64,000 bases of DNA from Cymbidium sinense (Eukaryota; Streptophyta; Magnoliopsida; Asparagales; Orchidaceae). Both the position numbers and the translations under genes were made by a program. The notes beneath the pieces are model-generated. The model saw nothing but the letters and a program-made list of their open reading frames with translations. It was not told the origin of the DNA and ran no database searches. Below, piece after piece: positions 1 through 42,080 of this stretch. Location of the stretch: NCBI GenBank assembly GCA_021442155.1, contig CM038228.1, positions 14,797,179 to 14,861,178 of the forward strand, given 5' to 3'. Positions within the stretch are counted from its first letter, which is position 1, and each line of letters opens with the position of its first letter.

Positions 1-1755
1 GTTTTCATTGAATTGTTGAGGAGTTCAGTGTACCAATCATATAGCCTACTAAACTGCTGACAAAAAGATAGAAAAATAGTTCATCGCTACCACTAGCATT
101 GCAACAACTGGCCTTGAAGTGCACCATGTGCTGGCGTGGGTTCCCATCTAAAACTCTTGAAAGAAGGAGGCAGAAAACCCTTAGGATATTGGATATCATC
201 AAATTCCTTTAGGTAGTGTCTACCCTTTGGAACCGATGAACCACCTCGGGCTTGAACCATTGATTCTCTCACTTGTTGCTCAACCATGAGTTTAATATAT
301 TTTTCTTGTATAGAGGTACTGTCCACTACCTTCCTATACAAGCTAGTGCTGCCATACTCTACCAAAGGTGAACTCTTAGGTTGATCCAAGACATGCAGTA
401 ACTCAGACTGACTAGTCTCCGCAATAGTAGGATGTGTTGCTAGAGCTTAATTCTGAGGTGCCAGACTGCCGCTAGTAAATCATCAAGCCTATTTCCCATC
501 TTGTCAATTTATTCATCTTTTTATTTAAGTTGTTGAAGGAGGTGTTGGGTCAAATGGGCTGTATCATCCTGTTCGGTTGCAACACCTTCCAAACTATGCT
601 GATCTCAAAGGAGGGAACCCCTGGTGTCAACCATATGCACTTCTGCTAAGTTTTCCAATAAATCATCTTCATTGGGATCAAAACTAATATTTTCTTCCTC
701 TAGGTCAGACCAGTCATACCCTAAGATTTCCTTCTTCTCAATAAGATACTATGCTATAATATCGTCTAGGGAGCGGTCCTACTATGTAGGCACAAAAGCT
801 CGTGGCTGACCAGTGGTAAGATCATGCTCATGAATAGAGATACATTTGACCTCCCATTATACTAGAGAGCTAACCCTGTGAGGGCTATGCTCGCTAGAAG
901 AAATGTGCTCATGGCTGTCATCTGCTCTAGGTGGAGTGCTTCTCCTGGGAGGATCTATCATCATCAGTGCAATTGAACTGTCTCCTTTCACTCTGCTAAT
1001 GTTATGTATATGATCTGCTGAGGTGGTGGTGGTGATGGCACAACTACAATGCTACGAGGTCGCCACTCCTTCTTCACCACAACTGAAGTAAGAGGTCGAG
1101 CATGAGAGCTCTACCTCGCCTCAGTCAGTGGTGTAGATAAAATGGGATCTCTAGGCCATAGTCGGATCATCAATGGGGCCCTCTTTTCTCCTGATGCTGC
1201 CTTCATGACTTTTGATGGAACTGTGGAAGATAGAACTTGTACTGATGATGGTGGACGTAGAGTGGAGCAGTGTGATGGAGACACCACAGACTCTCTATGT
1301 TCAGGAGCTCCCCTCCTGTGATGGGTAGTGTCGGTCAATACAATAATATTAATATGATCGGCATGGGTAGCATGTCGATCAGGGAGATCCATGAGGGCGG
1401 AGGCAGTTAACTATCTAGCATACCTTCACCTCTCTATGCTAGAAACATGCACTGATACGAGGGCCTCCCTGGCCCTTTCCTGCCAGATATGCTCACCTAC
1501 GCTACAAGGAATGATTGATCATAGACCAAATTGGGCTTTGGACTTTGATTGTCTAAAAGCCCTGCCAACTTGGCGTAGAACTGTCCTAAGGCTAGCATAG
1601 GAACTCCTCCTATCTCTGATAGGTGCCTCATAGTGAACTGCAGGTGAAGGTGACACTATAAACCTCCTAACATCTTCCTCTCCCTCAGATCTGGAAAGAA
1701 GATGGAACTTGTTCTATGTGATTAGAGGAGAAACTATCTTGGGTGGCTCCTCTAC
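1..1755 (-). pseudogene. Decayed gag region of element 1 (partial)
   Basis: This is gag coding sequence broken by many stops and frame changes. The segment at 93-389 reads with the same spacing as element 2 at 63,043-63,294; both share KVVDS/VVDST, ARGGSSV, EEFD/KEFDD, IQYPK and VPPS/LPPS, the block just before the capsid-like core of Tat-type gag. The segment around 700-830 reads GQPRAFVP, DRSLDDII and EKKEILGY and matches element 2 at 63,570-63,690, but here stops interrupt it. A proline-rich stretch near 1,040-1,080 (EWRP, VPSPPPP) has its partner at 63,890-63,950. Short open frames inside (for example 1,111-1,392) are remnants, not separate genes. Translation into a working protein is not possible from this copy. 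The rest of gag and all of pol lie left of the window. Confidence 0.8.
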
Positions 1756-2268
1756 TCAAACCTGAGAAACTTCCTCCATCTCCTCGGCTATGCGCACATG
1801 ATACCGCTTGATCTTGCAACATCTATTGCAGTGCTGAGTTTTATTAGGAGGAGCAGTACGGGAACTAGACCCTATCTCAAAGGTAGGGGAGACTATCCCT
1901 AAAGCCAGGGCAGCCTTCCCCTTGGAAGAAGCCAGTGAGTGGGTATTAGCCTGTGCTGGGGTAGTGATGGGAAAAATTGACTGAATGAACAGTGGAGCTC
2001 CAACTTCTACGGGAACGTCCACTATCTTCTTCTTCAGTGAGAGAAATTTAGAATCTGATGGCATTTCAACATGGATGATTAGCTTCTGCCTAGTCACCAC
2101 ACTCCTACTAATAGTTGTGTGGGTTGCCCCCTCACAAGTGATCCTGGCCCGCTCAAATCCTCGGCCAAATAAAATCAGATGGGCAAAGTTAGTCTGTGAG
2201 AGGCTGGCCTGATCCAAGGCCAAATCCATCTCAAAGGGGAAAGTGAAGACATACTTCTGAGCATCCAT
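1756..2268 (-). pseudogene. ORF1-like / gag N-terminal open frame, 170 codons
   Basis: This is the first open frame downstream of the leader and the longest frame in the window. It starts MDAQKYVFTFPFEMDLALDQ and ends in TGA; in-frame sequence continues past the stop (VEEPPKIVSPLIT) to a second stop, so the original protein was longer. No domain is recognised. There is a small Cys/His cluster near residues 144-155 (HCNRCCKIKRYH). I see no signal peptide or membrane segment. Its place, between leader and gag, is where Ogre-type elements carry an extra ORF1 of unknown function; that is family knowledge and the assignment is inference. It could equally be the N-terminus of gag. The ATG is chosen because the frame upstream turns into low-complexity leader. 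Confidence 0.5.
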
Positions 2269-5200
2269 TAGTACTGAACTGAACTTAAGAAAAACTGACT
2301 GAAACTGAGTTAAAATTTTACAATTTTTGAAAATAAACTCAAATCAGATTTTCTATTTTAATTTACTTTTAGAATTTGAACCCACACTTAATAATTTGAA
2401 TATGTTAAGTGGGGTTCAACGATTTAGGAGAGATTTTGAGTTTAGAATTGGAGAAGAGATTTTTAAATTTAGAATCCATTTTCAACAAATTTGTGTATGT
2501 TGGAAATGGGTTCAAATATTTTGAAGAGATTTTTATGCTTCCATTGGTTCATATTTGAATTTAATTTTTATGTTTGGGAACCCTTTATTTAACAAATTTG
2601 AGTATATTAAAATAAAGGGTCAATTGATTTTATTTGGAACTTACTCACTTAGCAAATTTGGGTATGCTAAATGAGTTGTTTGAAATTAATTTTCTTCTTT
2701 TGCTTGTTTTCCCATGATGTGAATCATGTGTGAGTTTAGAAACAAAATATTTACTTAGGAAATTTATGTATGCTAAATAAAGTCCATATGTTTTTGAATC
2801 TTTATTTTGATTTTTTAAAATGAGGTCTTTACTTTGCAAATTTGGGTATGCTAAATAAAGACCAAATGTGTGTAATTTTTTTATTTTTATTTTTGAAAAA
2901 TAAAACCTTTACTTAGCAAATTTGGCTATGATAAGTAAAGAATCCAAATGTGTTTGATTTTATGATTTTGAAAAGTGGGTCTTTACTTAACAAATCTGAG
3001 TATGCTAAATAAAGAATCCAAATGTGTTTGATTTTTATGATTTTGAAAATAGGATGTTTACTTAACAAATTTGGGTATGCTAAAGAAAGAATCCAAATGT
3101 GTTTGATTTTTATAATTTTGAAAAGAGGATCTTTACTTAGCAAATTTAGGTATGCTATCCAACTTTGTTTGATTTTTGTGATTTTGAAAAGAGGATCTTT
3201 ACTTAGCAAATTTAGGTATGCTAAATAAAGGATCTAACTATTTAATTTTTATGATTTTGAAAAGAGGATCTTCACTTAGCAAATTTGGGTATGCTAAATC
3301 AAGAATCCAAAGGTGTTTAATTTTTATTGAAAAATGAAACCTTTACTCAACAAATTTGGGCATGCTAAATAAAGGATTCCAAATGTGTTTGATTTTTATG
3401 ATTTTGAAAAGAGGATCTTTACTTAGCAAATTTGGGTATGCTAAATAAAGGATCCAAATGTGTTTTGGGTTTTTGTGATTTTGAAAAGAAGATCTTTACT
3501 TAACAAATCTAGGTATGCTAAATAAATTCCAAATGTGTTTGATTTTTATGATTTTGAAAAGATGATCTTTACTTAACAAATTTGGGTATGCTAAATAATG
3601 AATCTAAATGTGTTTTTGGTTTTGAAAATGAGAACTTTACTTAGCAAATTTGTGTATGCTAAATAAAATTCAAAGGTGTTTGATTTTGATGTTTTGATTT
3701 TTGAAAATGAGAACTTTACTTAGCAAATTTGTGTATGCTAAATAAAATTCAAATGTGTTTTTGGTTTTGATCTTTTTGATTTTTGAAAATGAGAATTTTA
3801 CTTAGCAAATTTGTGTATGCTAAATAAAGTTTAAATGTGTTTGATTTTGATGTTTTGATTTTTTTGAAAAGAGGGAACTTTGCTTAGCAAATTTGGGTAT
3901 GCTAAATAAGAGATCCAAATTTATTTTGATAATTGAAACTCTCATTTAACAAATTTGGGTGTCACATGGGAGTCAATCATGTTTTATTTTTCAAAGATGA
4001 ATTTTGTTTTTGTGTGTGATTATTGCCTTTTGAAAAGAATGAAATTTTAACTTAACACATGTGGGATGTGTTGAGTGGAATTTCAAATGGTGTTGTTTTA
4101 TTTGAAAATAAAACCTCCATACAACATGTTTGGATATATTGAATGAAGAGGCTTATTTTCAAATTTGTACTTTTTAAAAAGAAAGAAATTTCAATTCTAA
4201 CATATGCGAGATATGTCAAAATGGAATTTGAATGTCATGATATGAATCTATTTGAAAATGAAATCTTCATTCAATAAACTTGGGTATATTGAATGAGGGT
4301 GTTCATTTTTAAATATGTGCTTTGAAAAGAAGATCTTGATTTTATTTGGAAATGAAATCTTCATTGAATAAATTTGGGTGTATTGAACGAGGGTATTCAT
4401 TTTCAAATATGTGCTTTTTGAAAAGATGATTTTTGGATTTTGTTTAGAAATGAAATTTTCATTCAATAAATTTGGGTATATTGAATGAAGATGTTCATTT
4501 GTGATTTTTGAAAGATGATTTTGATTTTATTTGGAAATGAATTCTTCATTCAATAAATTTGGGTATAATGAATGAGGATGTTCATATGTGCTTTTGAAAG
4601 ATGATTTTGGTTTTGTTTAGAAATGAAGTCTTCATTCAATAAATTTGGGTATATTGAATGAAGATGTTCATTTATGATGTTTGAAAGATGATTTTGATTT
4701 TATTTGGAAATAAAATCTTCATTCAATAAATTTGGGTATATTGAGTGAGGATGTTTATATGTGTTTTTTGAAAGATATTTTGGTTTGTTTAGAAATCAAA
4801 TCTTCATTCAATAAATTTGGGTATATTGAATGAAGATGTTCATATGTGCTTTTCCAAAAGATGATTTTTATTTTGTTTAGAAATGAAATCTTCATTCAAT
4901 AAATTTGGATATATTGAATGAGCATATTCATATGTGCTTTTTGAAAAGATGATTTTTTACTTTTGATTTTTGAAAAGATCCTACATGTAACAATCTTGAA
5001 GATTGTTAGATGAGGTTGAGTTATGAAAATTTTTGTGTAAGTATTGAACTTTTTGGAAAGTGTTTTTTTTATAAAAAAAAGTGAAATTTTTTATGAAGGA
5101 TTTATTTTTTCTTATTTGTAGAATGAACCTTACCATACCATAGAAATGGTATGGGAAGTTCAAGCAAAACTTTTAGTTAATTCTTTTGTTTAAATTTTAT

Positions 5201-5408
5201 TTTCATCTATTGGGGGACCCAATAGGGGTTTTAAGACCTACATGGAGTGAGGTCCTAAAACCTAAAGGATGTTGGCTAGCTTAGCTTAAGAATAAAATAA
5301 ACTAAGTGCCAACAAAAAAGAAGAATAGTGTCAAACTCATATAAGATACAAATCCACTATTGATACTTGAAGACAACGATCATTTACAAAAGAAGGAGAG
5401 AGGAACCT
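2269..5408 (-). other. Long 5' leader of element 1 (PBS to ORF1)
   Basis: About 3.1 kb lie between the primer-binding site and the first open frame. In sense order (minus strand) they hold about 250 bp of unique sequence next to the PBS, a few single foldbacks, then the tandem hairpin array, then the start of ORF1. Single foldbacks include 5,128-5,152 (arms ACCATACCAT and ATGGTATGG) and 4,987-5,008 (arms TAACAATCT and AGATTGTTA). Near 5,228-5,264 there is a pair GGTTTTAAGACCT and AGGTCCTAAAACC. No open frame of note is present. The transcript would include this whole leader. Confidence 0.7.
2379..4925 (-). repeat. Tandem hairpin array, about 30 units of 65-100 bp
   Basis: Each unit holds an inverted repeat of two 12-16 bp arms around a ten-base loop, usually AATTTGGGTA on the plus strand, followed by a spacer rich in TTTTGATTTT/TTTTGAAAA. 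Two main arm types occur. Type I (about 2,640-3,960) has CTTTACTTAGCA and TGCTAAATAAAG, for example at 3,417-3,450. Type II (about 4,260-4,925) has CTTCATTCAATA and TATTGAATGAAG, for example at 4,802-4,835, a perfect 12-bp stem. At the edges and at the switch the arms differ again but still pair: 2,473-2,512 (AATCCATTTTCAACA / TGTTGGAAATGGGTT) and 2,579-2,620 (AACCCTTTATTTAACA / TATTAAAATAAAGGGT). The array lies in the transcribed leader. A neutral tandem repeat is the alternative, but it does not easily explain paired arm changes. Confidence 0.9.
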
Positions 5409-5426
5409 TCCTGAGTGGAGTCACCA
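5409..5426 (-). other. Candidate primer-binding site of element 1
   Basis: Read on the minus strand the site is TGGTGACTCCACTCAGGA. It begins with TGG, the complement of a tRNA CCA end, seven bases after the LTR terminus CACCACA. From memory it resembles the TGGCGACTC-type sequence that follows the 5' LTR in many Tat-group elements. I cannot assign the tRNA without a search. Confidence 0.55.
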
Positions 5427-5692
5427 AAAAATCTGTGGTGTTTATTTCTCAAACTCTTAGGGAATTTGAAAAATAAATATTTTGTATATTTGGACACCAC
5501 GTAGATCCGTAGGTGTACTCATTAGGGTGACCGAGTGCGACATTGAGGAATGATGTACTATCTCGAGAGACAGAAGTCATCATCCTATAATAGACCTAAT
5601 CACCTAATGAGTACTCCTAATTCTTCGAATGTACAAGAGATGTTCCCCTACATTACATGGAAAAATAAAGTAAACTGGGTTCGTTAAGTTCC

Positions 5693-5746
5693 CTATGGAG
5701 GCAAGCCTCATAGTTAATTACATCTTAAGGAATGAGATCCCTTAAG
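5693..5746 (-). other. U5 hairpins 1 and 2 of LTR A
   Basis: Hairpin 1 (5,693-5,713) has arms CTATGGAGGC and GCCTCATAG around a two-base loop. Hairpin 2 (5,724-5,746) has arms CTTAAGG and CCTTAAG. The same two hairpins occur in LTR I (45,727-45,743; 45,756-45,778) and solo LTR C (26,407-26,430; 26,441-26,465) with different but still pairing arms; in solo LTR G hairpin 1 (38,905-38,926) is perfect, CTATGAAAGC with GCTTTCATAG. They lie 250-300 bp from the LTR 3' end, in the part expected to be at the 5' end of the RNA. Confidence 0.75.
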
Positions 5747-5887
5747 AATACTCTCAATTAACATAAATGATCATTGTCTCCAAAGATTTCAAAGATAGGA
5801 CTATCAATAAATTAGTTATTTTTGAAAAATCAAGTGGGATTGATCAAAAAGAGGGAGTTATTATTGAAACCAAAGGGAGATAAGTAA

Positions 5888-5925
5888 GGGATGCTCACGA
5901 TGCTAGGAAACCTAGCGAGCATCCC
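5888..5925 (-). other. U5 hairpin 3 of LTR A
   Basis: Arms GGGATGCTC...GCTAGG and CCTAGC...GAGCATCCC surround an AAA loop, with a five-base bulge. LTR I (45,923-45,960) has outer arms GAGATGCTC and GAGCATCTC, solo LTR C (26,605-26,642) has GGAGCAT and ATGCTCC, and solo LTR G (38,697-38,730) has GAAGCA and TGCTTC. Pairing is kept while bases change on both sides. Confidence 0.75.
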
Positions 5926-6923
5926 AAACTATCCTATGGTTGGGCTTTATATTTTTGAAATTTGAAGAGAGTTGATTATTTGAGTTGAATTTTTATTAGA
6001 AATCTAGGGCTTACAATTCCACAACACGAGATTATGGAAATGCTTAAGAAGTGAGGATTTATGCAAGTAGTCTAGAAAGGGAAACAAAGACCTCAGATCT
6101 TGAATCTAGGGAGCTTTGGCCAAGGAAAAAGTATGACCTAAATCTAAGGAGAAAATGGGTATGTGGTTTACCTCCACAAGAGAGGATAAACCACCTGACT
6201 GTTGGACTTACAACCACCTGGGGGTGGCAACTAACTCCTCCTACAATTTTAAATTCATGTAGGCAAGCCTTATACTTTGCAAGATAACTAGTGTGTTATT
6301 TATTTAGAAAGGAGACTAAGTCCTTAAACACACTCCCTAAGAGACTAGATCATGAAGGACATGAATAAATGACTTAATCTAATGCAAATTTTGTTAAATT
6401 TTATTTTCATTTTTGGAAATTTTTATTTGACACTAGCTATGGGATTTCATATGCCTAATGCATGAGAAATTATTTGTTGGCCAAAATCAACAAAAAGATG
6501 GTCTATTTTCACCATGGCTCTCAACGGTCAAGCCATTTTCTCTAGCAAAGGTGGAAGCCCTCCATTAGCAAGAGTGAAGCAAAATAATTTTATGCATGAT
6601 GGGAGACATACAACATCCAACTAAGGGGTTGCTAAATCTTTTATTATCTTGATTTATGTCTTAGGCTTTTTTAGGTGAGGTTATGAGTTGTTTAATTTAA
6701 TTTTGAGTTGATTAATTTGGTAGAAAATTTATTTTTTCCTAAGAGCCTAATCGCATCTAGGCCATTTGTCAAAATAATGATGAAACTAGGAAAATCATAC
6801 CATCTCTAATGCACAAGCTAAACAAACATCAAACAATTTTATAAAGTAATCACAAAAGAATAAGAGGTTTGGTCGAGTACCACCGTACAACCTGAAAAGA
6901 AATGTGGGTAGCCAAGCTCTACC

Positions 6924-6929
6924 CTTATA
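6924..6929 (-). promoter_or_regulatory. TATA box of LTR A
   Basis: The minus strand reads TGTATAAGGGTAGAGC. The same TATAAGG(G)YAGAGCT context is found in LTR I (46,977-46,982, minus), copy D (22,475-22,480, plus) and copy E (32,574-32,579, plus), each in the sense direction of its LTR. About 35-50 bases downstream is a second shared word, GGTAC/GGTGC followed by YCGRYC, which may mark the start of R. No other TATA-like site is shared by these copies as clearly. Confidence 0.65.
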
Positions 6930-6998
6930 CAACCCTGATTACACATGAACAATTATAATTTAAAAAGAATTCATATTATGGGGGTCTTAATTCTTCAT

Positions 6999-7068
6999 TT
7001 TTTTTTTCATTTTTTCATTTCTTTCTTTTCTTCACTTCTTTCTTTCTTTCTTTCTTTCTTCTCTCTTC
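6999..7068. repeat. TTTC/GAAA microsatellite in LTR A
   Basis: A plus-strand pyrimidine tract with about six TTTC units at 7,035-7,060 and looser T/C sequence before it. On the LTR sense strand it is a GAAA purine tract about 75-140 bp upstream of the TATA box. LTR I has a different pyrimidine tract (TTCTTCT type, 47,056-47,115) at the same place, so a tract is kept while its unit differs. Confidence 0.85.
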
Positions 7069-9836
7069 ATTTGGACTTGGAATGTAGTTTGCTCCAAGGT
7101 TTCACATGGTACATAAGACATGGTCCTATGACCAATGTTCACTTTAATTCCCCCATAACATTCATTCCAAATCTTAATTGTAAAAATTACATCAAAATGG
7201 GAAAGATAAATCTAACTAAAGCTGCAAAATAGAGATTAGCTAAACATACCACACAACCCAAGAAGTTATACGAATAATTTTTGACTTAGCACCCCACACT
7301 TGGGTAACCAAGTCCCTCTGTCCTAATTTAGATCATGCTTAGGGGTATAAGTAACCTGAACAACAAAAGCATTTATATTTTTATTACAACACCCCTTAAG
7401 CATAATCCTCTGCGAAAGACATGGTTAGACTAAGATCATTCTCTCATCTAGTCTATGCACATACACCCTAACATCTAGTATAAAAAACATTAAATCACAA
7501 AATAAAATTAGACATCAAACCATGCACCACCCTAACATAGAGCTAGAAATGGTGACTTAGCCTAATATGTGTGCCATTTAAGGCTCGTGTGGCATGTCTT
7601 AGCTAAGATTAAAGGTTGGAATTTTCTAAGTGTGAAGGATTCAACTTAGAATGAGGTTTCATTTAAGTGATTTAGTTGATTTGTTAATTTTATTTGATGA
7701 TTTGATTTGGTTTGAATGGACCTACACTTAGTTATTATATATTGTAAAGAGAAGAAAAAAAAGATAACTTCTCTTTCATCCCTACCTTAAGCAATTTCTA
7801 AGGTAGATTCATTAGTGATTTTTCTTTAGCGAATATTTTATTATGTGTTTTAATTAACCCCAAGTTTAGATTTGCTTTAAATAAACCTATTCAATAGGAA
7901 AGACATCTTAAGATAAATTAAGGTGAATTACTATCACATAACACACAACCATTTATTTCTTTCCACTATGTATATCATCCATATGAATTATCCTAAGCAT
8001 ATATATACATGCAATGCAAATCTTAGCACACCTTAATTGTGAATGCAAAGAGATGTTCTTTATGAAAATTTAGATATTTCATGAATGCATGTTTTTATTA
8101 AGTAGAAAAGAGGGACTCTTTTATTTATTAATCAAATGCACATCCATATATATAAAATAGATAGGTGAGTATGACACCATTATTTTCTACACCAGGGGTG
8201 TAAGGTACAAGACCTACTTGGGGCTACTTAAGCCTTGCAACTCTGGGATGTCCAGACTAATATACCACTTTTCTTAAATACATGTGCATGTACAAAAGAT
8301 GCAAATGGATGAAGAATCATGCAAATAATTTATGTTTGATTTTGGTTGTATAATTTACATGTGTAATGTGAGGATCCTTCTTAAGTCATAACATGGGAGT
8401 GTATAGGAATAGATTTAATCAAGTGTTATATATTTTTTTTCAAATGAACTATACACTTTGCAAATCCTATTTAAATCCATGTTAAAAGAAGAGAAAAAAA
8501 TCACATAATACCCATATGATGCTATAATCACATGCAAGCTTATAATTACTTATAAGTAGCATCACTTCATTTAAAATCTTTGATTTATAGATTTTAAAAA
8601 TAATTTCTGGTTTAATAGTGATAATAGCCACTCGTATTCTTAAATTTAGCCAACACATACAATTTGATATAAAGAGAACATTTTATTCAATTGATTTTTA
8701 AAAGTGATGAATGCATGACTTCATATAGAAAATAATATTTAACATGCTTGGAAAGAAATAAAGTGATGTAAGCATATGACTTCATTCACCCTAATTAATT
8801 CCTGAAGTAAGATAATTTAAAAGTGAATCAACATTCTTTAAAGAGATTTTTAATTTTAGATTTGGTTTAAAAATGATTTGCGAGAAAGAGTTTGCTGGTC
8901 CTAACCCATTTCCCCCATGTGTGAATCAATTTAGTTTAATTTTAGAACAATTAAGTTGGTTTTATGTTTTGTTTAGGTTAAGGTATAAATTAAGTCCATT
9001 AATTACCCAATACCTATACCACTTTAACATAATTAAATAAATAATTATGAGCCAACATATTATATGCAACCACATGGAATTTAAATCAGCAATGCACCTA
9101 AGAAATAAAGGGGCCTAATACAATTGGCTCACAATTATTGATTAATTAAGCTAAATTATTTCATTAAGTACTTTCATAACCTTCCCACACATATGAGTTG
9201 GATATGATTTTCTCAAACTTACCTTAGCTTAACACCTAAGGATCTACCCAGCAAGATATTGATTAACTCTAGATCTATTTTGAAAGTTTGATTAGACTAA
9301 TTAAGTAGATCATTAGTGGATTAATCCTTAATTATATTTGGATTAAGGAAGAAAGAGGATTTAGGAAATAACTTAGAGAAATTATCCCAAACCCATTTCA
9401 TAAACCTCATCGTTACTTAAATAATATTTAATTATCTCAATTAAGGGATTAAATCACTATTCGTATGCTTAAGTACTCTTAATTATATCAAGGGGGTGAT
9501 TAGGGGTTCATTAATTAAATTTCTTAGTTAACTCATTAATAAATTACAAGAAAATTAAGGGAGGCAAAAGTCATCCCACTAAACATGTTTCAGAAATTTG
9601 AAATTAATTAATTAAGTAATTAAGGTGATTAAATTTTTAATTAAACCCTAATTAAGGAAAATTCACTATTTAAAATCAATTAGAAATAATTTTATTAGAT
9701 TCCCCTCTAAAATATCTTTAAAATGTGCCCTCATTTATATTTTTGGATTTTTCTACATTTAATTATGATTTTCTAAAGTTTCTATGATTATTAAATAATT
9801 AAATAGCCTAATTAATTAACTAATCCCATAGGCCTG

Positions 9837-10110
9837 ATGTGGAAAGCTGATGCGACATGCTTTCCATATGGCGCATTGGGATTGGATATTTATGTTATCA
9901 CATCATGTGGCATGGGTAATGCGCTTTCCCGGGCGTCGATCAAGGATCGATGGCGGTAAATCTTGTTGTTCCAAAGGATTTAAATCAATGGATCTAATCG
10001 ATTTAATCAGGGTCGTCCATCCAAAAATAGAGGATGTATGACTCATGATTCATCCTTGCCTAAGCTGCGGGAGACGGAGGCAATCCATCCTCCACGGCTT
10101 GATCTGAGCT
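9837..10110 (-). promoter_or_regulatory. CpG-richer U3 block with foldback, LTR A
   Basis: A GC-richer island in the AT-rich LTR. It opens with a foldback, ATGTGGAAAGC and GCTTTCCATAT (9,837-9,869). Equivalent foldbacks stand at the same place in B (15,740-15,778, GCCATGTGG / CCACATGGC), C (28,646-28,678) and G (38,321-38,359, GCCACGTGGA / TCCACATGGC). After it come CpG-containing words (GTCGATC, GATCGATGG, GGTCGTCCATCC). Several copies contain a G-box-like core (CACGTG in G). A regulatory role is inference. Confidence 0.5.
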
Positions 10111-11159
10111 CACCTAAGCTTGAATTAGGCTAGGATTTACCCCAAACCATCAAGAGGTGTAGGGAAGAACATCTAATGGCTAGAATCTAGTTGGATTAAA
10201 ATTCCTTCACAAATGACCAAGAAATTTTTAAAGGAGGATTGATTATGAGAAATATCTCACCGGAGGCTATCACCAATGCTTCCAATAGAGAAGGTAGCTT
10301 CGTTTAGTGGAGATGAAGCCCTGTTGAAAGTATCAAGCCTTGATTTGAAATGGATGTCTTGGTTGATCAAGCTCCCCTTCAATGGACATAGGGTTCGATC
10401 GAGATCCCCCTTCCTGTGGCTTGGAGACTTGGGAAACACCTTGGGTGAGCTTAACTAAGTCCTTTGATGGTTCTTGCAAAGTGAATTTAGGTTTGGTGGA
10501 GAATTGAGTAAGTTGGAATTTTCTTAGGCCTCCCTAATTTTCTCTTTGAAGAAAATCGAGAAGGAGAAATTTAGAAGGCTTGGAAATTACCTTGCCAAGG
10601 TCAGAGAAGCTTGGTTTTGGTTCCTAGGGATCAATCAAATTCAGTGTGTGTGGTTTGAGTTGGAATGAGGGGGAGTATATCTGACCTTACTTGGATCGGA
10701 CGGTCGAGGCTAGCTTTGCCATTTTTGATCAATTGCTCTAATTGATTAGTTTGTTTAGGCTGTTAGGCACTCCATGTGGTTCATTTTAGGTAGAGGAGTG
10801 GAAGAGAGAGAGAGAGTGCCCATGTGCTAGGTGAGTGTATGAGGTGATTCAAGTTTCTAATTTGCATTAGATGGATCGATTTGGCCTTGGGTTGGGCCAT
10901 GGCTAACCAAAACCCACTGGGTCATGTTCACCACCTCCCTTAGTGTCCAAATGGACCACTAGGAAGATGTCAGTGGCCATGAGAAAGCTTTGGCCAAATT
11001 CCAAGTGAATATGGCCCTAGGGTACCCTTTGTCCTAAAGGTAAAATAGTCATTTGGCCTTAATTTTGATTTGGGTAGATTTAAAATGATTTAAAAGTGGG
11101 TTGAGCCAAATTTTAAGTGATTTAGAGTTCATTTGGTTTGAATTGGTTCAATTTTACCC

Positions 11160-11960
11160 ATTTAGGTCAAAATGAGTCAATTTAGGTTAGGATTGACAAT
11201 TGAATTAAGTGGTCAAACCATAGGTTGGAGTCAAGTTCAAATGATCATTTGGAGCCTATGGGTATCATTGGTTTAATTTAATTTTGTTTATATTTAATTT
11301 TGGTTCATTTAGGTCAAATAGGTCAAGTTGACCAATTTGGCCCCTTTGACCCAAATGAGTTAAGTCAAGGGTTGGTTTAGGCTTGGTTGATCATTTGAAA
11401 TGTATTACAAGCTTTGGTTTCAATCAATTTTGGTTTGGTTGGATTTCAAGTTGATTTGACCTTTTAGGTCAAGTTGGGTTCATGGTTAATTGGGCTAGGT
11501 TGGGTCTAGTTGGCCAATTGAAGCTTCGGTCAAGTTCAACAAGTGATTTGGAATGAATTTGACCCATTGGTTGCAATCTATTTGGCTTAGATCAAGATTT
11601 GACCCATTTTACTTTTTAAGTCAAGTTGGGTCAACTTAGATCAAGTGGACAATTGGGCTTGGTTTGGCTGATTTGGTCAAGTTCAATCATTGATTATGAG
11701 CTAGTTTAGATCAATGGTTTCAATCAATTTTGCATATGATGAATTTTGTCTAGTTTGGGTTTCATTTGGGCTAAGTGTTGACTTGGTCAAAGGCTAGGTT
11801 TGACTTTGTTTGACCAAATTTGAGTGATTAATCATCCTAGGATGATTGTTGCTCACAATGTGATGCTTAGATAAGCTTAGTCAATCTAATTTGGGTTGGA
11901 TTAGAATTTGGCTCAAAAAGGTGCTTTAGGTTACTTTGGGTCAGGAGAGCCTAAGTGGGT
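11160..11960 (-). promoter_or_regulatory. W-box word array in U3 of LTR A
   Basis: A degenerate minisatellite built from GGTCAA and TTGACC words, often as the palindrome GGTCAAGTTGACC. I count about 15 six-base W-box cores (TTGACC on either strand) in about 0.8 kb, where fewer than one is expected. TTGAC[C/T] is the known target of plant WRKY factors; whether these words bind is inference. The array recurs in every LTR copy that keeps this part. Confidence 0.7.
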
Positions 11961-12309
11961 CAATTGACTTGATCAAGGCTTGATTTAGGTTTGGTTGAAC
12001 TCACATATAAACTTATGATTGAAATATAAATCCAAATTGCAAGTGATTTAGAGTCAAATGGGTTTTGATTTATTTGACAATTTTAAGTTCAAAGGATGAA
12101 CATGGGCTTGATTTGGGTTAGTTTGATTTTGGTTTGATGATTAAAGTTTATGTTTATATTTGGTTTGTGATTGAAGGAATGATTGTTTGAAGAGAAAATT
12201 CAAAGATTTGGATTGATTTGAGAATGATTTGACTAAGTTTCAAGGATTTGACTTGAAAGTGTATAAGTTGGATTTAAGTTGGATTTTGATTTGAGTTTTT
12301 TTTTTAATT

Positions 12310-12560
12310 TTGGTTTGGTTATTTGAATTTATATTCCATTTATATTTGTGAATATAAATGAGAATATAAATGAGTTGTGAGAAAAATCTTTTGAGTTTGG
12401 AGTGATTTGGATTTGATTTGAGCTAAGTCCATAAGATGAAATCAAAATGGCTTAGGAAAGATTATGAATTTGGAATTGAGTTTTGGATTTAGTTTTGGTT
12501 ATTTGAATTTATATTTCATTTATATTTGTGAATATAAATGAGAATATAAATGGGTTATGA
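12310..12560 (-). repeat. Two tandem foldback modules (about 180 bp) near the 5' end of LTR A
   Basis: Each module holds CATTTATATT, a short TGTG loop and AATATAAATG, followed by a second AGAATATAAATG. LTR A has two modules, B has three (about 18,050, 18,210, 18,385, arms decayed) and I has four (52,390-53,010). The count difference accounts for most of the length difference between A and I. Confidence 0.75.
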
Positions 12561-12589
12561 TCAAATCTTTTGAGTTTGGTGTGATTTGG

Positions 12590-12720
12590 AATTGATTTGA
12601 ATTTGAAGTTGATTTGAATTTGAAGTTAGTTTGAATTTGAAGTTGGTTTGAATTTGAAGTTGGTTTGAATTTGAAGTTGGTTTGAATTTGAAGTTGATTT
12701 GAATTTGAAGTTGATTTGAA
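12590..12720 (-). repeat. 18-bp tandem repeat, about 7 copies
   Basis: Repeats of TTGAATTTGAAGTTGGTT, with G/A changes in some units. It is present only in LTR A among the copies here, so it is a local expansion. Confidence 0.85.
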
Positions 12721-12944
12721 AGAAGGAATTAAAGATTTGGTTCAAGCTATAGGGTAGGCAAGTTTTCCTAATACCCCGAAGGCATAACCTATTCCTATAT
12801 CTAACTATTCTAAGTCTCTAGGGTTAGGTTAAGTGTTCACCTAATCACTAGAAGTGTCTTAAGACTAAGGAACTCTTAGTGACTAGATGAGTCCTATGTC
12901 TAAGATGAAGAAGTTGAAAGCTCAGTCCAAAAGTGAGGTCAACA

Positions 12945-12976
12945 TTAACTTAATAGAATTTAATTATATAACAAAA

Positions 12977-13033
<57 letters not shown>

Positions 13034-13089
13034 ATCTAAAAAATAAATGAATGAAAATATTAAATCAAATAAAGATTTGTAAAATCAAA
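12945..13089. repeat. Spacer between LTR A and LTR B with a (TA) microsatellite
   Basis: A pure TA tract of about 25 units lies at about 12,979-13,031. The rest is A/T-rich sequence without genes. It separates the 5' end of LTR A from the truncated start of LTR B. Confidence 0.85.
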
Positions 13090-16000
13090 TAATAATGAAA
13101 TTAGTTCAAACAATTTGAACCACCCAAGTTAACTAAAAGGGTGTGGTTAGGGGTTTGAGCAACTTACAAAGAGAGCATTTTTATTTATTTTGAGCATCCC
13201 CTTAAACACAATCTCCTACAAAAAATATAATTAGGCTAAGAACGACCTACTATCCAGTCTATGAAGCATACACCCTAACATCCAGTCTAAAATATTTCAT
13301 CACAAAATAAAACATACATCACACCATGCACTGTCCTAACATAGAGCTAGAAGTGGTGACTTAATTCTAATGTGTGTGTTAAGGCTTATGTGGTGCGTCT
13401 TAACTAAGCATTAAGGTTGCAATTTTCTAAGTGTAGAAGGATTCAATTTAACATAAAGGGTTGATTTTACTTGAAGATATTTAATTGATTTGAGAATTTT
13501 AATTTGTGTTTTCTTTTGTTCCATATGATTACACTTAGCAACAAAGTGTTATAAAGAGAAGGAAGAGGATTACCCTCTTCCATCTCTACCTTAAGCCCTT
13601 TCTAAAGCATATTAAGTTGATTTAATTCTCTTTAATGAATGGCTTATTAAATGATTTAATTAATCCTAAGTTTAAGTTCACTTTAAGTAATTCCATTTAA
13701 TATGAAAGGCTTCTTAAGATTAATCTAATTGAATTGAATTACAACCACATGACTTATGTGCAATTCTTCCTTTCCATCACATATAACATGCATATGATCT
13801 TAATCCTAAGTATACATATACATGCAACATATCTTAGCACACTTAAATGATGGATGTAGATGTGTATTTGAAGTTTATATATTCCATTTGATTAAATTAT
13901 TTAATCATATTAATTTAAAGTTTTATCTAAATTCTTATGCAAAAATATATAGGGATAAAATTAAATAGGTATGTGCCATTGTTAACAAGAAGTGAGGTAA
14001 TCAAATGACCTCCTTGGGGCTAGCTAAAGCCTCGTATTCCCGGGATGTCTAGACTATATACCCATTTGCATTCAGACATATGTAAATTTATATACATGAA
14101 TATAAGAAAGAAAGATCCAAATCACATGACTAATTAATTCAATCACTTAGTCAATCATGGATGCATGTATTTTTAGTAGGAAAGTGGAATTTTATTCTCT
14201 AATTACATATACATACACATATATGAAGAAATAAGCAAATACGTGCCTTTGTTAACTAAGGAAGTGAGGTAATCAAATGACCTCCTTGGTGTTAGCTAAA
14301 GCCTCGTATTTCTGGGATGTCCAGACTATATATTTATTAACATTCAAATACATGTAAAACTACATATGAATGAAGGATAAGAAAGCTTTAACTTATATAA
14401 CTAAGCTATAAGCACATGAAAAGTCTATATGTGTTCATAACTACTGTCACTCTAATCAATGTACTTGATTTATAAACTTTAAGAAGTAATTTAAATTTAT
14501 TAGTGATAATAGCCACACATATTATAAATTAATCTAACACATGCAAGCTTACATAAAGAAAAATCATTTGATTTAAATAGTTTTGAAAAGATGAATGCAT
14601 GACTTCAAATGAAATATACAATCTAACATGATTGGAAAAATATAAATAAACATAAACACATAATTTCATTAAAAAATTAATTCTTAAGGACAATCATATT
14701 AAATAAAGCTATTTAAAGTAAACCAAAGCTTCTTTATGCTATTTTTAACTTTATGTTTTGATTTGATTTAAGGAGTTCTGCTGATTTTAAACCATTCCCA
14801 TGTTTATTAATTAATTTGGTTTAATGAAATGTAATTAAGTTGATTTTATGAGTTAATTAGGTTATAGTATGCATTAAATACATTAATTAACCCTTTCTTA
14901 TGTTACTTTAATATGATTATCTAAATAATTATGAGCCAACATGATATGCACATGAATTGAAAATTAAATTAGCAATGATCCTAAGAAATAAAAGGGGCCT
15001 AATACAATTGGCTCACAATTAATGGTTAATTAGATTAAGGAACTTAATTAAGTACTCTTATGGTTTCACCACACATGTGGGTTAACCATAATTTCCTTGA
15101 ATATCTTTAGGTTATTAAACACCTAAAGATCTAGCCATAAATTAATTAATTAAGTTCTTATGTGATTATGATTTTAATTTAGTTAATTAAATCTTAATTA
15201 GTCAAAGTATTTGATTAATCTTTAAAACTAATTAAATTCCTTCCAAGTGAAATGATGTTAGGGAAAATGATTAGAAGGGAGGCCTAACCATTTCCTTTTG
15301 TTCATTCACTGTTGGTCAATGATATTTGACTTTTCAAATTGATTAATTTATTATTCAATGGATTAATTGATTAATTAATTACATTCAAAGGCAATTAAGC
15401 TAATTAAAGTTGATTTCCCTAATTACTTAAGCAACAATTCTCAAAAAAATTATGGGAGGTAGAGGTCATCCCCTTTAATGAACTCACAAAGTTTGGGGTT
15501 AATTGCATAAGTAATTAATGAGTAATTAAGCTAATTAAATTTTGAATTTAATCTTAATTAAGCTTTATTTATAGTTCAAAATTACTTTAAAATATTTTTA
15601 ATAAATTTTTCTCTAAAATACCTTTAAAATAAATATTTATATGCATTTTTTGAAATTTTCTACAATTTTTTATAAATTTTTAAAGATTCAGCCACTAAAA
15701 TTAATTAATTAGCCTTAATTAAAGCCTAATCCTATTGGCGCCATGTGGCATATTGATGCGGCGCGCTTTCCACATGGCACCACTAGAATGGATTATTTAA
15801 AGCAACTCAACGTGGCTTCTGCGCGGAGACGACGGACGTGCTTTCTAGTCCACCGTCTGATCTTAGTCAGACGAGTATGATTAATCTCACAGTTTTGTAA
15901 AGATTTAATCAGATCAATCTAGCAGATCTAATCACGACCATTCATTCTGATCATGCGGAATGGACAGTGCACGATCCATCGTCTCCCAAGTGATGAGAGA

Positions 16001-16589: not shown

Positions 16590-17029
16590 AAGGGATTGGA
16601 TTACACACTTGATTTTGGCCAGCCAGCCGTCCTCCGGCCATCAGAGTGGTCAGGGTTAAGTCCATGTGGCTCGATTGGGTTGGTGGAGTGCATGGCTGGT
16701 GTCTCAAGGAAATAGCCCTCAAGTTAGGATCCATTTGGTCAGCCATGGTGGGGAGGCGAGTTAACTCACCTCCCTTTGGTTCAAGGCTGACCTAAGCCAC
16801 TTGGGCTAGGTTAGGTGAGTAGATTAGGCTCTATTCTTAGGTGTTTTAGGCTACCACATGGAAAGGTAGACTTTGCCAATTTTGGCTAAAACCCATGTGG
16901 GGAGGAGAATCCATGGGAGATTTGCTTTGGGTTGAACCCAATTCAGGTTGGACTGGTTTGGGGCTGACCCAAGGTGGGTTTAAGATGGGTTGGGTTAGGT
17001 TTTAATGGGTCATGGCTTGGTGTTTGGCT

Positions 17030-17860
17030 CAATTTGACCCTTATAGGTCAAATTGGGCTAGGTTAGGTTAGGTTGACCAATTGGTCAAATTGGGTCAAGT
17101 TCAAATGATGATTTGAAGTGTTTTGGTTCAATTGGTTTGAATTAATTTGGCTTAGGTTTGATTTTGGCTCATTTGGATTCATATAGGTCAAATGGGTCAA
17201 GTTGACCAATTTGATCAAATTGGCTAAATTGGCTTGGGTTATGTATTGGTTTGGGTTTGATTGATCGATTAGAGATGATTGCAAGCTTTGAGTTCAATCA
17301 TTTTGGATCTGGTTTTGATTGAGGCCAAATTGATCCTTCAGGTTAATTTGGGCTAAATGGGTCAATTGGGTACAATTGGTCAAATTGGGTTCAATTGGGG
17401 ATTTGGTCAAGTTCAATAATCAATTTGGAATAAACTTGAGCCATTAGTTGCAATCAATTTGGGTTAGATCATGATTTGACCCAATTTAATTTTTTAGGTC
17501 AAATTGGGTCAACTTGGGTCAAAGGGCCAACTAGATTAGGTTTGACTCACTTGATGGTCAAGTCATGTCAAAATATTGATTTTAGGTTGGTATGAGTCAT
17601 TATCTTGAATTGATTTAGTGTAGGATGAATTTTGGCTAGTTTGGGTTCATATGGGTTAAGAGGGTTGACTTGGTCAAATGACCAAGTTGATTTGGTTTGA
17701 CCCAATTTATGATAATTGATCATCTTAGCATGATCAACAATCATCATAGGAGGTATTGGTTAAGTTATTTAATTTAATTTGGGTTAGATTGAAACTTGGT
17801 TCAAATAGGTCAAATTGGTCACTTTGGGTCAAGTGGACCAATTGGGCTTAGTTAAGTTGA
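17030..17860 (-). promoter_or_regulatory. W-box word array in LTR B
   Basis: Same array of GGTCAA/TTGACC words as in LTR A, at the equivalent U3 place. Composition and spacing differ from A, so the units have turned over since the copies split. Confidence 0.65.
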
Positions 17861-38700: not shown

Positions 38701-39173
38701 CACTTGGTTTCCTAATATCGGGAATGCTTCCTTCTCATTTTCCTTTGGAATCGGTAAATAAGTCTTTCTATTTGAACATTCCCACTTGATTTTCAAACGT
38801 ACCCACTCCTTTGATAGTTTATTTGTGAAATCTTTGGAGATACTTATTGAATACTTTAATCAAGAATATTCTTAAGAAATTCCCATTTTGTTAGATGTAA
38901 TTAACTATGAAAGCTTGCTTTCATAGAGAAAAAAAGAATTTTTCATAAAATAAACCTTACTTTACTTCTCCATGTAAAGTTGGGGAAAGATCTTTGGTAT
39001 ATACGTAGACCCATCTTCCTTAGGAGTCTTTATTAGGTGATTAGGTCCATTGTAGGGTGATATTTTTATCTCCCGAGATGGTACATCATACCTTAATATC
39101 TCACCCAATCACTTCAATAAGTATCCCATAAGATCTGCGTCGTGTCCCTACGACTCTAAATTAAAACACCACA
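35755..39173 (+). mobile_element. LTR copy G: solo LTR, plus orientation, internally deleted
   Basis: It starts TGTTGACCTCAC and ends AAACACCACA, with 5-bp flanks GTACT (35,750-35,754) and ATACT (39,174-39,178), one base apart. It is 3,419 bp because the middle, equivalent to about A 5,950-9,580 including the promoter, is deleted. It keeps the W-box array, the GC-richer block, U3 foldbacks (TCCATTC / GAATGGA at 38,136-38,159; GCCACGTGGA / TCCACATGGC at 38,321-38,359) and two clear U5 hairpins (38,697-38,730; 38,905-38,926). It confirms both LTR termini independently of A and I. Confidence 0.87.
36230..37170 (+). promoter_or_regulatory. W-box word array in solo LTR G
   Basis: The same word array, seen here as TTGACC and GGTCAA in CCAATTTGACC-like units. 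An 87-codon frame through it (36,841-37,104) is a by-product of the repeat. Confidence 0.65.
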
Positions 39174-41379: not shown

Positions 41380-42080
41380 CCAATTGGCTCACTTGACCCA
41401 AAGTGGCCAATTTGACCTACATGAATTAAAATCTAATTCAATTCAAATCACAGTGAGTTAAGGCAATCCAAACTTCATGTCATGTTTGTTGATCATCATA
41501 GGTTAATCAATTGTCATGAATTAGGTCAAACCAAGTCAACCTAGCCCGTTGACCAAGTCAACCTAGCCCATTGACTAAGTCAACCCTTTAACCCATATGA
41601 ACCTAAACTAACCAAGTTGCAACCTAAATCAAATTGATTATAACCAATGGCTCAAGTTCACTCCAAATTGATTATTAAACTTGACCAAAGCCTCAATTAA
41701 ACCCAATTTGACCAATTGGCCAACTACACCCAACCTAGCCCAATTCACCATAAACCTAACTTGACATAAAAGGTCAAATCAAACCAAAATTGATTGAAAG
41801 AAAAGCTTGAAACATATTCCAAATGATCAACCAAACCCAAACCAAACCATGATTCAATCCAATTTGGTCAATTGGGTCAAATTGGTCCACTTAGCACAAA
41901 TTAACTTAAAGGATCAAATTAGCCAAAATCCAAATTTAATCCAAATTAAACCAAATTGATTGAAACCAATTGAACCAATATACTCTAAATAGTCATTTGA
42001 ACTTGACCCAACTCTTGGTTTGACCCAATTTGACCAATTGGTCAACCTAACCCATTTTAACCCAATTTGACCCAAATGGG
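41380..42080 (+). promoter_or_regulatory. W-box word array in LTR H
   Basis: TTGACC/GGTCAA words, including a local duplication around 41,540-41,585 (AGTCAACCTAGCCC repeated with small changes). Confidence 0.65.

Follow-up and report, generated by a model that had tools for sequence, protein, structure and literature searches.

A tandem array of constant-loop hairpins in the RNA leader of an LTR retrotransposon of Cymbidium sinense

What could keep about 30 hairpins with one loop and changing stems in the leader of a plant retrotransposon? This question is raised by a 64-kb stretch of Cymbidium sinense DNA (hereafter the window, meaning the whole stretch analysed), whose minus strand carries an LTR retrotransposon with a leader filled by such an array. 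Plant LTR retrotransposons form much of large plant genomes and, to our knowledge, how they choose their own RNA for packaging is largely open. The array is most likely a multivalent binding array read through its loop, and packaging of the genomic RNA is our first guess for its role.

The host element and its hairpin array

The element presents the features of a Gypsy-type LTR retrotransposon, i.e., TG...CA LTR ends, a primer binding site (PBS) after the LTR, and an ORF and a reverse transcriptase (RT) on the same strand. The RT evidence comes from a related, same-strand copy at 56-64 kb, the array-bearing copy being cut off by the window end. This related copy encodes RNase H domains of reverse transcriptase (PF17919 and PF17917); the ORFs at 57743-58015 and 56959-57267 have no Pfam match and presumably resemble RNase H and integrase. 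An extra ORF ahead of gag and a second RNase H after the RT are marks of the Tat/Ogre lineage. The LTR was delimited by self-matches to several related LTRs and by end alignments.

5434..12944, minus strand: 5′ LTR of 7511 bp, sense 5′ end TGTTGACC, sense 3′ end ACACCACA
5404..5426, minus strand: candidate PBS TGGTGACTCCACTCAGGAAGGTT directly after the LTR end, partly conserved among copies
2269..5433, minus strand: RNA leader from the LTR end to the ORF1 ATG, 3165 nt
4928..5403, minus strand: 5′ leader segment holding further conserved hairpins (5227-5262, 5129-5158 and about 4976-5010), some changed on both sides
1756..2268, minus strand: start of ORF1, start codon at 2268

These positions bear out the placement of the array between PBS and ORF1 given by the first-pass annotation. 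For the 5′ part of the leader, RNAalifold predicted 63 pairs from the alignment of 17 copies (A3), 10 of them with a change on both sides. The ORF1 product matches no Pfam family above the cut-off and shows no known RNA-binding family, and none of its 114 candidates in the protein collection reached E ≤ 0.01. A search of positions 1-14000 of the window against Rfam 15 gave no match at the gathering score to a known structured RNA family.

The array hairpins are listed below in sense order, with E values from the covariance model search.

4886..4927, minus strand: first array hairpin, class UUCAUUCAAUA/UAUUGAAUGAA, E 1.3e-8
4798..4839, minus strand: array hairpin, class UUCAUUCAAUA/UAUUGAAUGAA, E 3.9e-11
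4713..4754, minus strand: array hairpin, class UUCAUUCAAUA/UAUUGAAUGAA, E 1e-9
4626..4667, minus strand: array hairpin, class UUCAUUCAAUA/UAUUGAAUGAA, E 1.9e-10
4540..4581, minus strand: array hairpin, class UUCAUUCAAUA/UAUUGAAUGAA, E 7.4e-9
4453..4494, minus strand: array hairpin, class UUCAUUCAAUA/UAUUGAAUGAA, E 2.6e-10
4355..4396, minus strand: array hairpin, class UUCAUUCAAUA/UAUUGAAUGAA, E 6e-8
4261..4302, minus strand: array hairpin, class UUCAUUCAAUA/UAUUGAAUGAA, E 2.2e-9
4111..4152, minus strand: diverged array hairpin, E 0.51 (weak), paired in the span-80 fold
4042..4084, minus strand: diverged hairpin with another loop, AACTTAACACA class of the first-pass annotation, E 0.59 (weak), paired in the span-80 fold
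3936..3975, minus strand: diverged array hairpin, E 0.051
3874..3915, minus strand: array hairpin, class CUUUAUUUAGCA/UGCUAAGUAAAG, E 5.7e-9
3792..3833, minus strand: array hairpin, class CUUUAUUUAGCA/UGCUAAGUAAAG, E 2e-10
3710..3751, minus strand: array hairpin, class CUUUAUUUAGCA/UGCUAAGUAAAG, E 9.1e-11
3631..3672, minus strand: array hairpin, class CUUUAUUUAGCA/UGCUAAGUAAAG, E 9.1e-11
3563..3604, minus strand: array hairpin, class CUUUAUUUAGCA/UGCUAAGUAAAG, E 1.2e-9
3490..3531, minus strand: array hairpin, class CUUUAUUUAGCA/UGCUAAGUAAAG, E 9.2e-8
3413..3454, minus strand: array hairpin, class CUUUAUUUAGCA/UGCUAAGUAAAG, E 1.4e-11
3337..3378, minus strand: array hairpin, class CUUUAUUUAGCA/UGCUAAGUAAAG, E 5.4e-9
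3266..3307, minus strand: array hairpin, class CUUUAUUUAGCA/UGCUAAGUAAAG, E 1e-10
3193..3234, minus strand: array hairpin, class CUUUAUUUAGCA/UGCUAAGUAAAG, E 5.2e-11
3138..3157, minus strand: broken array hairpin lacking part of one arm, E 0.0076 (partial match)
3052..3093, minus strand: array hairpin, class CUUUAUUUAGCA/UGCUAAGUAAAG, E 5.7e-9
2977..3018, minus strand: array hairpin, class CUUUAUUUAGCA/UGCUAAGUAAAG, E 5.1e-9
2903..2944, minus strand: array hairpin, class CUUUAUUUAGCA/UGCUAAGUAAAG, E 5.6e-9
2823..2864, minus strand: array hairpin, class CUUUAUUUAGCA/UGCUAAGUAAAG, E 5.8e-10
2745..2786, minus strand: array hairpin, class CUUUAUUUAGCA/UGCUAAGUAAAG, E 3.4e-8
2639..2680, minus strand: array hairpin, class ACUCAUUUAGCA/UGCUAAGUGAGU, E 4.5e-9, position kept in other copies
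2579..2621, minus strand: array hairpin, class ACCCUUUAUUUUAAUA/UGUUAAAUAAAGGGU, E 2.3e-7, position kept in other copies
2472..2513, minus strand: array hairpin, class GAACCCAUUUCCAACA/UGUUGAAAAUGGAUUC, E 2.9e-8, position kept in other copies
2378..2418, minus strand: final hairpin ahead of ORF1, class GAACCCCACUUAACA/UUAAGUGUGGGUUC, E 1.2e-4, conserved in other copies

The covariance model, built from 57 hairpins of which 26 come from this window and match by construction, gave 31 minus-strand matches, all within 2378-4927 and 27 of them at E ≤ 1.2e-4; outside this region it had no match at E ≤ 1 in the 64 kb. Its 19 plus-strand matches fall on the same hairpins. The motif AAATTTGGGTAT, with up to two changes, has 45 matches on both strands of the window: 28 on the plus strand within 2487-4912, one on the minus strand within the array (3911) and 16 elsewhere. 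On the sense strand of positions 1-12944, the loop complement (up to 2 of 12 letters off) was found nowhere except at 3911. The 31 model and 28 motif matches confirm the earlier count of about 30 loop-bearing hairpins in 2379..4925. The stem classes described with it are likewise present and pair, but the AACTTAACACA class with its different loop is only a weak match to the model.

In the 28 loop-bearing hairpins, the inner 10 pairs comprise, on the minus strand, 236 Watson-Crick, 25 G.U (15 of them at pair 7), 4 A.C and 15 other pairs. A scan by stem alone detected 24 hairpins on the minus and 27 on the plus strand of the array; letter-shuffled sequence gave 2.2. Folding with a base-pair span of at most 80 placed the minus strand 19 sd, and the plus strand 9.5 sd, below dinucleotide shuffles. 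In sliding-window folds of the whole 64 kb (10 shuffles each), z-scores of the array are mostly low on the minus strand; many other segments are low as well, so that the z-score alone does not single out the array. Tandem Repeats Finder (TRF) reported units of about 75 bp (2750-3920) and about 87 bp (4407-4956). An origin of the hairpins as MITE-like insertions was rejected because the units are arranged head to tail in tandem.

The array in other copies of the family

The array is family-wide, which the first-pass annotation had proposed to check: it is present in all 12 leaders picked by ORF1 homology alone, these being the closest by ORF1 (61-73% identical) among 150 scored copies from 35647 first-look candidates in the genome, and not a sample of all copies. 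The number of hairpins varies from 3 to 27 between copies, with decay accounting for part of this range, and their spacing within classes is mostly about 73-91 nt or near-multiples of it. Two 3′ hairpins lie 59 nt apart in seven of the 12 leaders and 60 nt apart in this copy, and copies with leader pieces about 64-86% identical to this one retain the last hairpins in the same order.

An initial set of 40 loci had been drawn from the first 4.9 Mb of one contig by exact matches to the loop, with clusters given priority; 13 of them carry arrays of at least five hairpins and 17 a homologous 5′ segment of the leader. Loci L032-L034 and L013 look like a palindromic LTR region. Applied at E ≤ 0.01 to 39 of 52 loci, the covariance model had no match in 22 of the 39.

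Constraint on loop, stems and spacers

The ten-base loop UACCCAAAUU is the most conserved part of the unit and the G-poor spacers the least. We counted 7 internal and 46 terminal changes in the 7 constant loop columns, 30 and 74 in the 3 variable ones (loop positions 3-5), 104 and 231 in the 20 stem columns, and 359 and 541 in the 32 spacer columns; these counts drop 80 of 395 stem-only hairpins, with a loop differing from UACCCAAAUU at more than four of ten positions, which somewhat favours loop conservation. Among the sense-strand hairpins found by stem alone in 13 leaders, 124 of 193 have a loop of exactly 10 nt, which is UACCCAAAUU in 69. The same scan, accepting G.U, found 241 hairpins on the antisense strand.

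Paired changes maintain the stems. In a tree built from 350 units, changes at stem partners coincided 50.4 times against 27.1 (sd 4.6) with permuted partners (0 of 100000 permutations), and 25.8 against 10.6 times on internal branches (0 of 100000). The units of the tree (350 distinct) and of the wobble counts without pair 7 (161 distinct) were required to have at least 6 of 10 Watson-Crick pairs; the coincidence test was repeated with a weaker filter and with none, the latter giving 17 of 20000 overall and 1 of 20000 on internal branches. Changes off Watson-Crick keep pairing more often on internal (53:53) than on terminal branches (75:210; p 1.8e-5). In alignment A5, 12 of 14 stem pairs changed on both sides, with 111 both-side-changed cells (shuffles gave 36.7, slid partners no more than 35); the pairing figures of A5 are raised by the choice of rows, 57 hairpins selected by us that include those of L042, L008 and L004 only in part and omit the two worst-paired of the window's 28 loop-bearing hairpins (around 3142 and 3951). 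The paired changes on both arms noticed in the first-pass annotation are thus borne out by the tree and by the A5 counts. The covariation that it proposed as a check exceeds the partner-permuted control on the same tree, but single pairs mostly fail a tree simulation of the R-scape kind: one pair reached E 0.035 in the pairing-filtered set, and none was significant in the unfiltered set or in the window alone.

Over 12 pairs, own arms are 67% Watson-Crick against 54% for arms swapped within a locus; when the swap partner is the nearest unit whose 5′ arm differs, the two figures are level (67% against 66%), so the swap test alone does not establish compensation among close units. A C.A mismatch at pair 11 is common to several units, and of the 54 distinct rows of A5, 22 retain a U.G wobble at pair 7. 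Without pair 7, the wobble counts are 46 G.U and 57 A.C, and the G.U to A.C strand test gave 38:26 on internal and 67:75 on terminal branches (p 0.13). RNAalifold found only 15 pairs, 5 of them changed on both sides, in the 3′ segment alignment A4, which we think was spoiled by bulges and indels.

The spacers contain 5-9% G in the 13 leaders; in this copy G makes up 23-24% of ORF1 and 14% of the LTR. Changes to G are rarer, relative to changes to C, on internal (54:191) than on terminal branches (110:217; p 0.003), which makes the two strands distinguishable. Together, the coincident stem changes and the constraint on the loop indicate that both stem pairing and the loop sequence were maintained during the active life of the elements.

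Possible roles and comparison with known systems

We favour, tentatively, the possibility that the array acts within the element's own genomic transcript as a multivalent RNA signal, with a protein-read loop, that marks full-length RNA for packaging. Each hairpin would present the same ten-base loop on a stem of some 10-14 bp, with unstructured, G-poor linkers holding neighbouring hairpins apart. A protein, most probably the element's own Gag or ORF1 product, would read the loop sequence and require of the stem no more than that it pairs; avidity would come from the roughly 30 sites on each RNA. The array would then mark unspliced full-length RNA for co-assembly into particles, like a many-copy retroviral packaging signal. 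This reading draws on the position and strand of the array, its loop motif being on the ORF1 strand, on its presence in all 12 ORF1-defined leaders, and on its spacing, paired stem changes, loop constraint and G-poor spacers. Its layout, multiple stem-loops in a 5′ leader near the PBS, is that of such signals, a 5′-leader packaging region with several stem-loops being usual in retroviruses (PMC5454406, in part).

We counted against this reading the lack of a known RNA-binding family in ORF1, the absence of a clear wobble signal for sense-strand RNA, the antisense hairpin excess, the C.A at pair 11, the single-pair test and the nearest-unit arm pairing. Retroviral nucleocapsid zinc knuckles usually prefer exposed G, and the loop of the array has no G, which speaks against packaging. 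It is rather doubtful, though conceivable, that the array is a natural many-copy RNA tag, read by the element's own ORF1 or Gag product, that condenses and sorts genomic RNA as a eukaryotic counterpart of the engineered MS2 array, kept through deep family divergence. One defined loop makes a ready bait, since a 42-nt RNA should pull down the reader protein, and conservation of structure against sequence drift can be measured here many times within one molecule.

The first-pass annotation had also listed translational shunting among possible functions, beside packaging, dimerisation and protein binding. Its RNA-leader array with paired changes stood, and so did the array's occurrence in other copies; a shunt of the CaMV type is not supported by the placement of the uORFs. 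The leader holds 38 AUGs, which makes plain scanning to ORF1 unlikely, and it is not necessarily the 5′ UTR of a translated RNA. An unlikely alternative to packaging is translation control, in which hairpins and linkers would take ribosomes past these AUGs by shunting, internal entry or repeated reinitiation: with 38 AUGs in 3165 nt, ORF1 needs some bypass, and plant pararetroviruses shunt via structured leaders with uORFs that also hold the packaging signal (PMC5902531, in part). AUGs in the array are slightly below shuffles in 13 of 13 leaders (228 against 276.8 summed), possibly by mild selection for translation, with hardly any depletion in this copy (31 against 33.1). On the other side, six of the 38 uORFs, of 11 codons each, have their AUG immediately ahead of a CAUUCAAUA-class hairpin and their stop within its 3′ arm, and so read through the hairpin rather than ending just before it. 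The CaMV arrangement, a short uORF ending just before one large stem, was not found in folds limited to a span of 80 nt, in which a larger stem could not have shown. Moreover, hairpin number differs widely between copies, shunting needs no constant loop sequence, and hairpins would not be required to deal with the AUGs if the leader were spliced out.

Binding by a host RNA-binding protein, for nuclear export, stability, localisation or decoying of a silencing factor, would account equally for a kept loop sequence and stem structure in many copies, which fit any sequence-specific loop binder; with no Rfam match in positions 1-14000, we regard it as quite unlikely. A role of the array as DNA, i.e., binding sites or cruciforms in the integrated copy or cDNA, appears very unlikely. 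The wobble counts leave RNA unproven, the hairpins form on either strand, and numerous palindromic boxes, interpreted as promoter elements, occur in Sirevirus LTRs (PMC2829016, in part). A dimeric DNA site, however, would keep its arms and let the segment between them vary, the opposite of what is seen here; the array also lies outside the LTR, and its linkers avoid G on one strand only. Neutral tandem repeats with palindromes renewed by template switching or conversion during reverse transcription, the earlier quasi-palindrome alternative, are highly improbable: the units are tandem and vary in number, and tandem arrays in Tat-lineage 3′ UTRs are common and ascribed to replication errors (PMC7004042, in part), but double changes are mostly confined to a single pair on a given branch (16.6 of 20.4 branches), a U.G has persisted at pair 7, conservation is highest in the loop, which arm copying does not protect, and the order of the last hairpins is kept in diverged copies.

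The array can be compared with several known systems. Coat-protein or packaging hairpins of RNA phages and small RNA viruses (MS2-type) combine fixed loop letters with a stem free to vary in sequence, as in the array; natural phage sites are few or degenerate, whereas here a near-regular array with a putative binding protein lies in a retroelement leader. Retroviral and Ty1 leaders (psi, TIPIRT domain) also have structured 5′ genomic RNA near the PBS and first ORF, and several stem-loops with functional loops (PMC5454406, in part), but few and unlike ones, whereas the array, a putative packaging signal, repeats a single hairpin with a single loop about 30 times over 2.5 kb. The CaMV/RTBV leader is similarly long, with many uAUGs before the first ORF and a structure serving translation and packaging (PMC5902531, in part); it has one large stem-loop, a short uORF ending before it and a PBS downstream of the shunt landing site, in contrast to many small hairpins, uORFs running through them and a PBS upstream of the array. 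Sirevirus RM boxes, too, are short palindromes present in large number in non-coding sequence of plant LTR elements, but they lie in the LTR (and near env), keep a CGG-CCG palindrome core and are read as DNA (PMC2829016, in part); in the array the arms drift, the loop is kept and the position is in the leader. Finally, the 3′ UTR repeats of the Tat lineage (Ogre) are tandem units in large plant LTR elements too, hypervariable in sequence and monomer length (PMC7004042, in part), whereas the array lies in the 5′ leader, is constrained in loop and stem, and keeps one hairpin design across families.

The host element and its hairpin array

The array lies in the minus-strand copy of an LTR retrotransposon, whose parts follow one another in the order LTR, candidate PBS, leader (the RNA stretch between the LTR end and the ORF1 ATG) and ORF1.

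Features of the host element
5434-12944, minus strand: LTR, with sense-strand start TGTTGACC and end ACACCACA, as in related LTRs of the window
Directly 3' of LTR 5434-12944, minus strand: candidate PBS
3165 nt, minus strand: leader, most of its length taken up by the array
From 2268 downwards, minus strand: ORF1

The array of about 30 hairpins reported in the first-pass annotation was recovered by a covariance model built from 57 hairpins (26 of the window and 31 of three other loci, L042, L008 and L004), which gave 31 minus-strand matches, all within 2378-4927; the rest of the 64 kb gave none. Allowing up to 2 changed letters out of 12, the loop itself is present in 28 copies inside 2487-4912. 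Compared with 30 dinucleotide shuffles per strand, the array fold is 19 sd lower on the minus strand and 9.5 sd lower on the plus strand. Between the PBS and the array, three other hairpins (4976-5010, 5129-5158 and 5227-5262) are conserved in a 17-copy alignment, and some of them change on both arms (columns 327-340: C-G 7, U-A 7).

A related copy at 56-64 kb contains reverse-transcriptase RNase H domains, and one stretch of it matches part of the ORF1 region at 77% identity. At 26162-31355 (minus) and 35755-39173 (plus) lie probable solo LTRs of related families, which have the same ends as LTR 5434-12944 and, by eye, 4-bp direct repeats at their borders (ACAT on the plus strand; TACT). An open frame of 183 codons at 24008-24559 (plus) adjoins an LTR-like end and has no Pfam match at E <= 0.1. 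LTR-like repeats also repeatedly contain a cluster of TTGACC/GGTCAA palindromes, for example at 51413-51454; this region may be a promoter, since WRKY factors bind TTGAC, the core of the W box.

TTGACC/GGTCAA palindrome clusters
11026-11590
17023-17542
29848-30560
36545-37083
41624-42132
51208-51734

Spread through the genome and the family

In the 3.53-Gb source assembly, exact matches to the loop string number 60867 + 59961, against 13668 + 13691 for the same string read backward. An ORF1 search yielded 35647 first-look candidates, of which 150 were scored, every one with E below 1e-59. Twelve leaders were picked at intervals down this 150-entry list, blind to hairpins, and all 12 carry the array, which is thus a family trait: a strict loop-and-stem rule finds 3 to 27 hairpins in each, and the opposite strand has 0 to 3 loop motifs. 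The order and spacing of the final hairpins before ORF1 are kept in many copies. In a 40-locus sample taken around the exact loop letters, the 5' segment of the leader could be matched to its homologue in this copy at 17 loci (70-81% identity). Locus L025 contains two array fragments in opposite orientations, at 1721-1853 (minus) and 8893-9029 (plus), possibly nested or rearranged copies.

Changes in stems, loops and spacers

In A5, a hand-chosen alignment of 57 array hairpins (54 distinct rows), 85.8% of cells are paired, and both-sided changes occur in 12 of 14 stem pairs, with 111 both-side-changed cells versus 36.7 +- 9.5 in shuffled data and 10-35 when partners are slid. Because the rows share ancestry and were our own selection, a tree-based control was needed. 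For 350 units from 37 loci placed on a tree, changes of true partners coincided on branches 50.4 times versus 27.1 +- 4.6 when partners were permuted (0 of 100000). Double Watson-Crick changes occurred one at a time on 16.6 of 20.4 branches. Without the pairing filter (429 units), the values were 221.7 versus 186.7 +- 9.6 (17 of 20000), and 68.0 versus 43.1 on internal branches only (1 of 20000). Assuming that most copies are dead, we read terminal branches as decay and internal branches as changes transmitted by active elements. Internal branches retain pairing more often (53:53) than terminal ones (75:210; p 1.8e-5), although p-values of this kind ignore residual dependence among units.

The covariation suggested earlier thus stands for the stems taken together, with coincident partner changes exceeding the permuted control, but single pairs mostly fail an R-scape-like simulation: one stem pair was significant in the pairing-filtered set (E 0.035), and neither the unfiltered set nor the window by itself gave any. 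Stem pairs nevertheless lead the ranking in the filtered (6 of the first 6) and unfiltered sets (4 of the first 5); in the window alone they make up 3 of the first 4, with a non-stem pair on top. Pairing with the own arm is no better than with the arms of the nearest other unit.

When the sense strands of 13 leaders (that of this copy and the 12 defined by ORF1) were searched for hairpins by their stems only, 124 of 193 had a 10-nt loop, and loop positions 1, 2 and 6-10 carry the same letter in at least 95%. Changes per column (internal, terminal branches) were 1.0 and 6.6 at constant loop positions, 10.0 and 24.7 at loop positions 3-5, 5.2 and 11.6 in stems, and 11.2 and 16.9 in spacers. Selection on stem pairing and on the loop letters is supported.

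The spacers contain 5-9% G in the 13 leaders, and in this copy ORF1 contains 23-24% and the LTR 14%. These linkers seem to be kept G-free on the RNA strand, because changes to G, relative to those to C, are rarer on internal (54:191) than on terminal branches (110:217; p 0.003). The RNA strand is assigned from orientation, loop, linkers and fold, not from wobbles. Wobble versus A.C counts (38:26 internal, 67:75 terminal branches, p 0.13) give no clear strand preference; a separate count that excludes pair 7, a stem position with a recurrent U.G wobble, gives 46 versus 57, and the outer four A5 pairs lean to A.C (29 versus 19 wobbles). A G.U-tolerant stem scan of the 13 leaders found more hairpins on the antisense (241) than on the sense strand (193).

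Leader expression and proposed role

There are 38 AUGs upstream of ORF1, which makes plain scanning unlikely; ORF1 is therefore probably expressed through splicing of the leader or some bypass. Array AUGs are near expectation in this copy (31 versus 33.1 +- 5.1), and 13 of 13 leaders show a mild deficit (sum 228 versus 276.8). Six uORFs of 11 codons open just before CAUUCAAUA-class hairpins and close in their 3' arm (4271-4931, minus).

Starts of the 11-codon uORFs, CAUUCAAUA class
4931, 4843, 4671, 4585, 4498, 4306, minus strand

In 12 of 17 copies the sequence GGTAAAT follows the PBS (TGTAAAT in this copy, 5381-5388, minus), and an AG-rich stretch lies just 5' of the ORF1 ATG (2268-2310, minus). 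We infer that these may be splice sites and the leader an intron.

A constant loop kept in many copies on a freely drifting stem would be the trace of a sequence-specific loop binder, and the leader position would indicate genomic RNA as its carrier. Should splicing remove the leader, the array would tag unspliced RNA, where a packaging mark would be useful; for this reason our first choice, a tentative one, is a packaging signal for Gag or the ORF1 product.

Titles and abstract openings, mostly of non-subscription literature, mention no retrotransposon-leader array of this kind, which does not prove novelty. Nor do passages of four papers describe one; the systems these papers treat, with which the array can be compared, are retroviral and Ty1 leaders (PMC5454406), pararetrovirus leaders (PMC5902531), Sirevirus palindromes (PMC2829016) and the 3' UTR repeats of Tat elements (PMC7004042).
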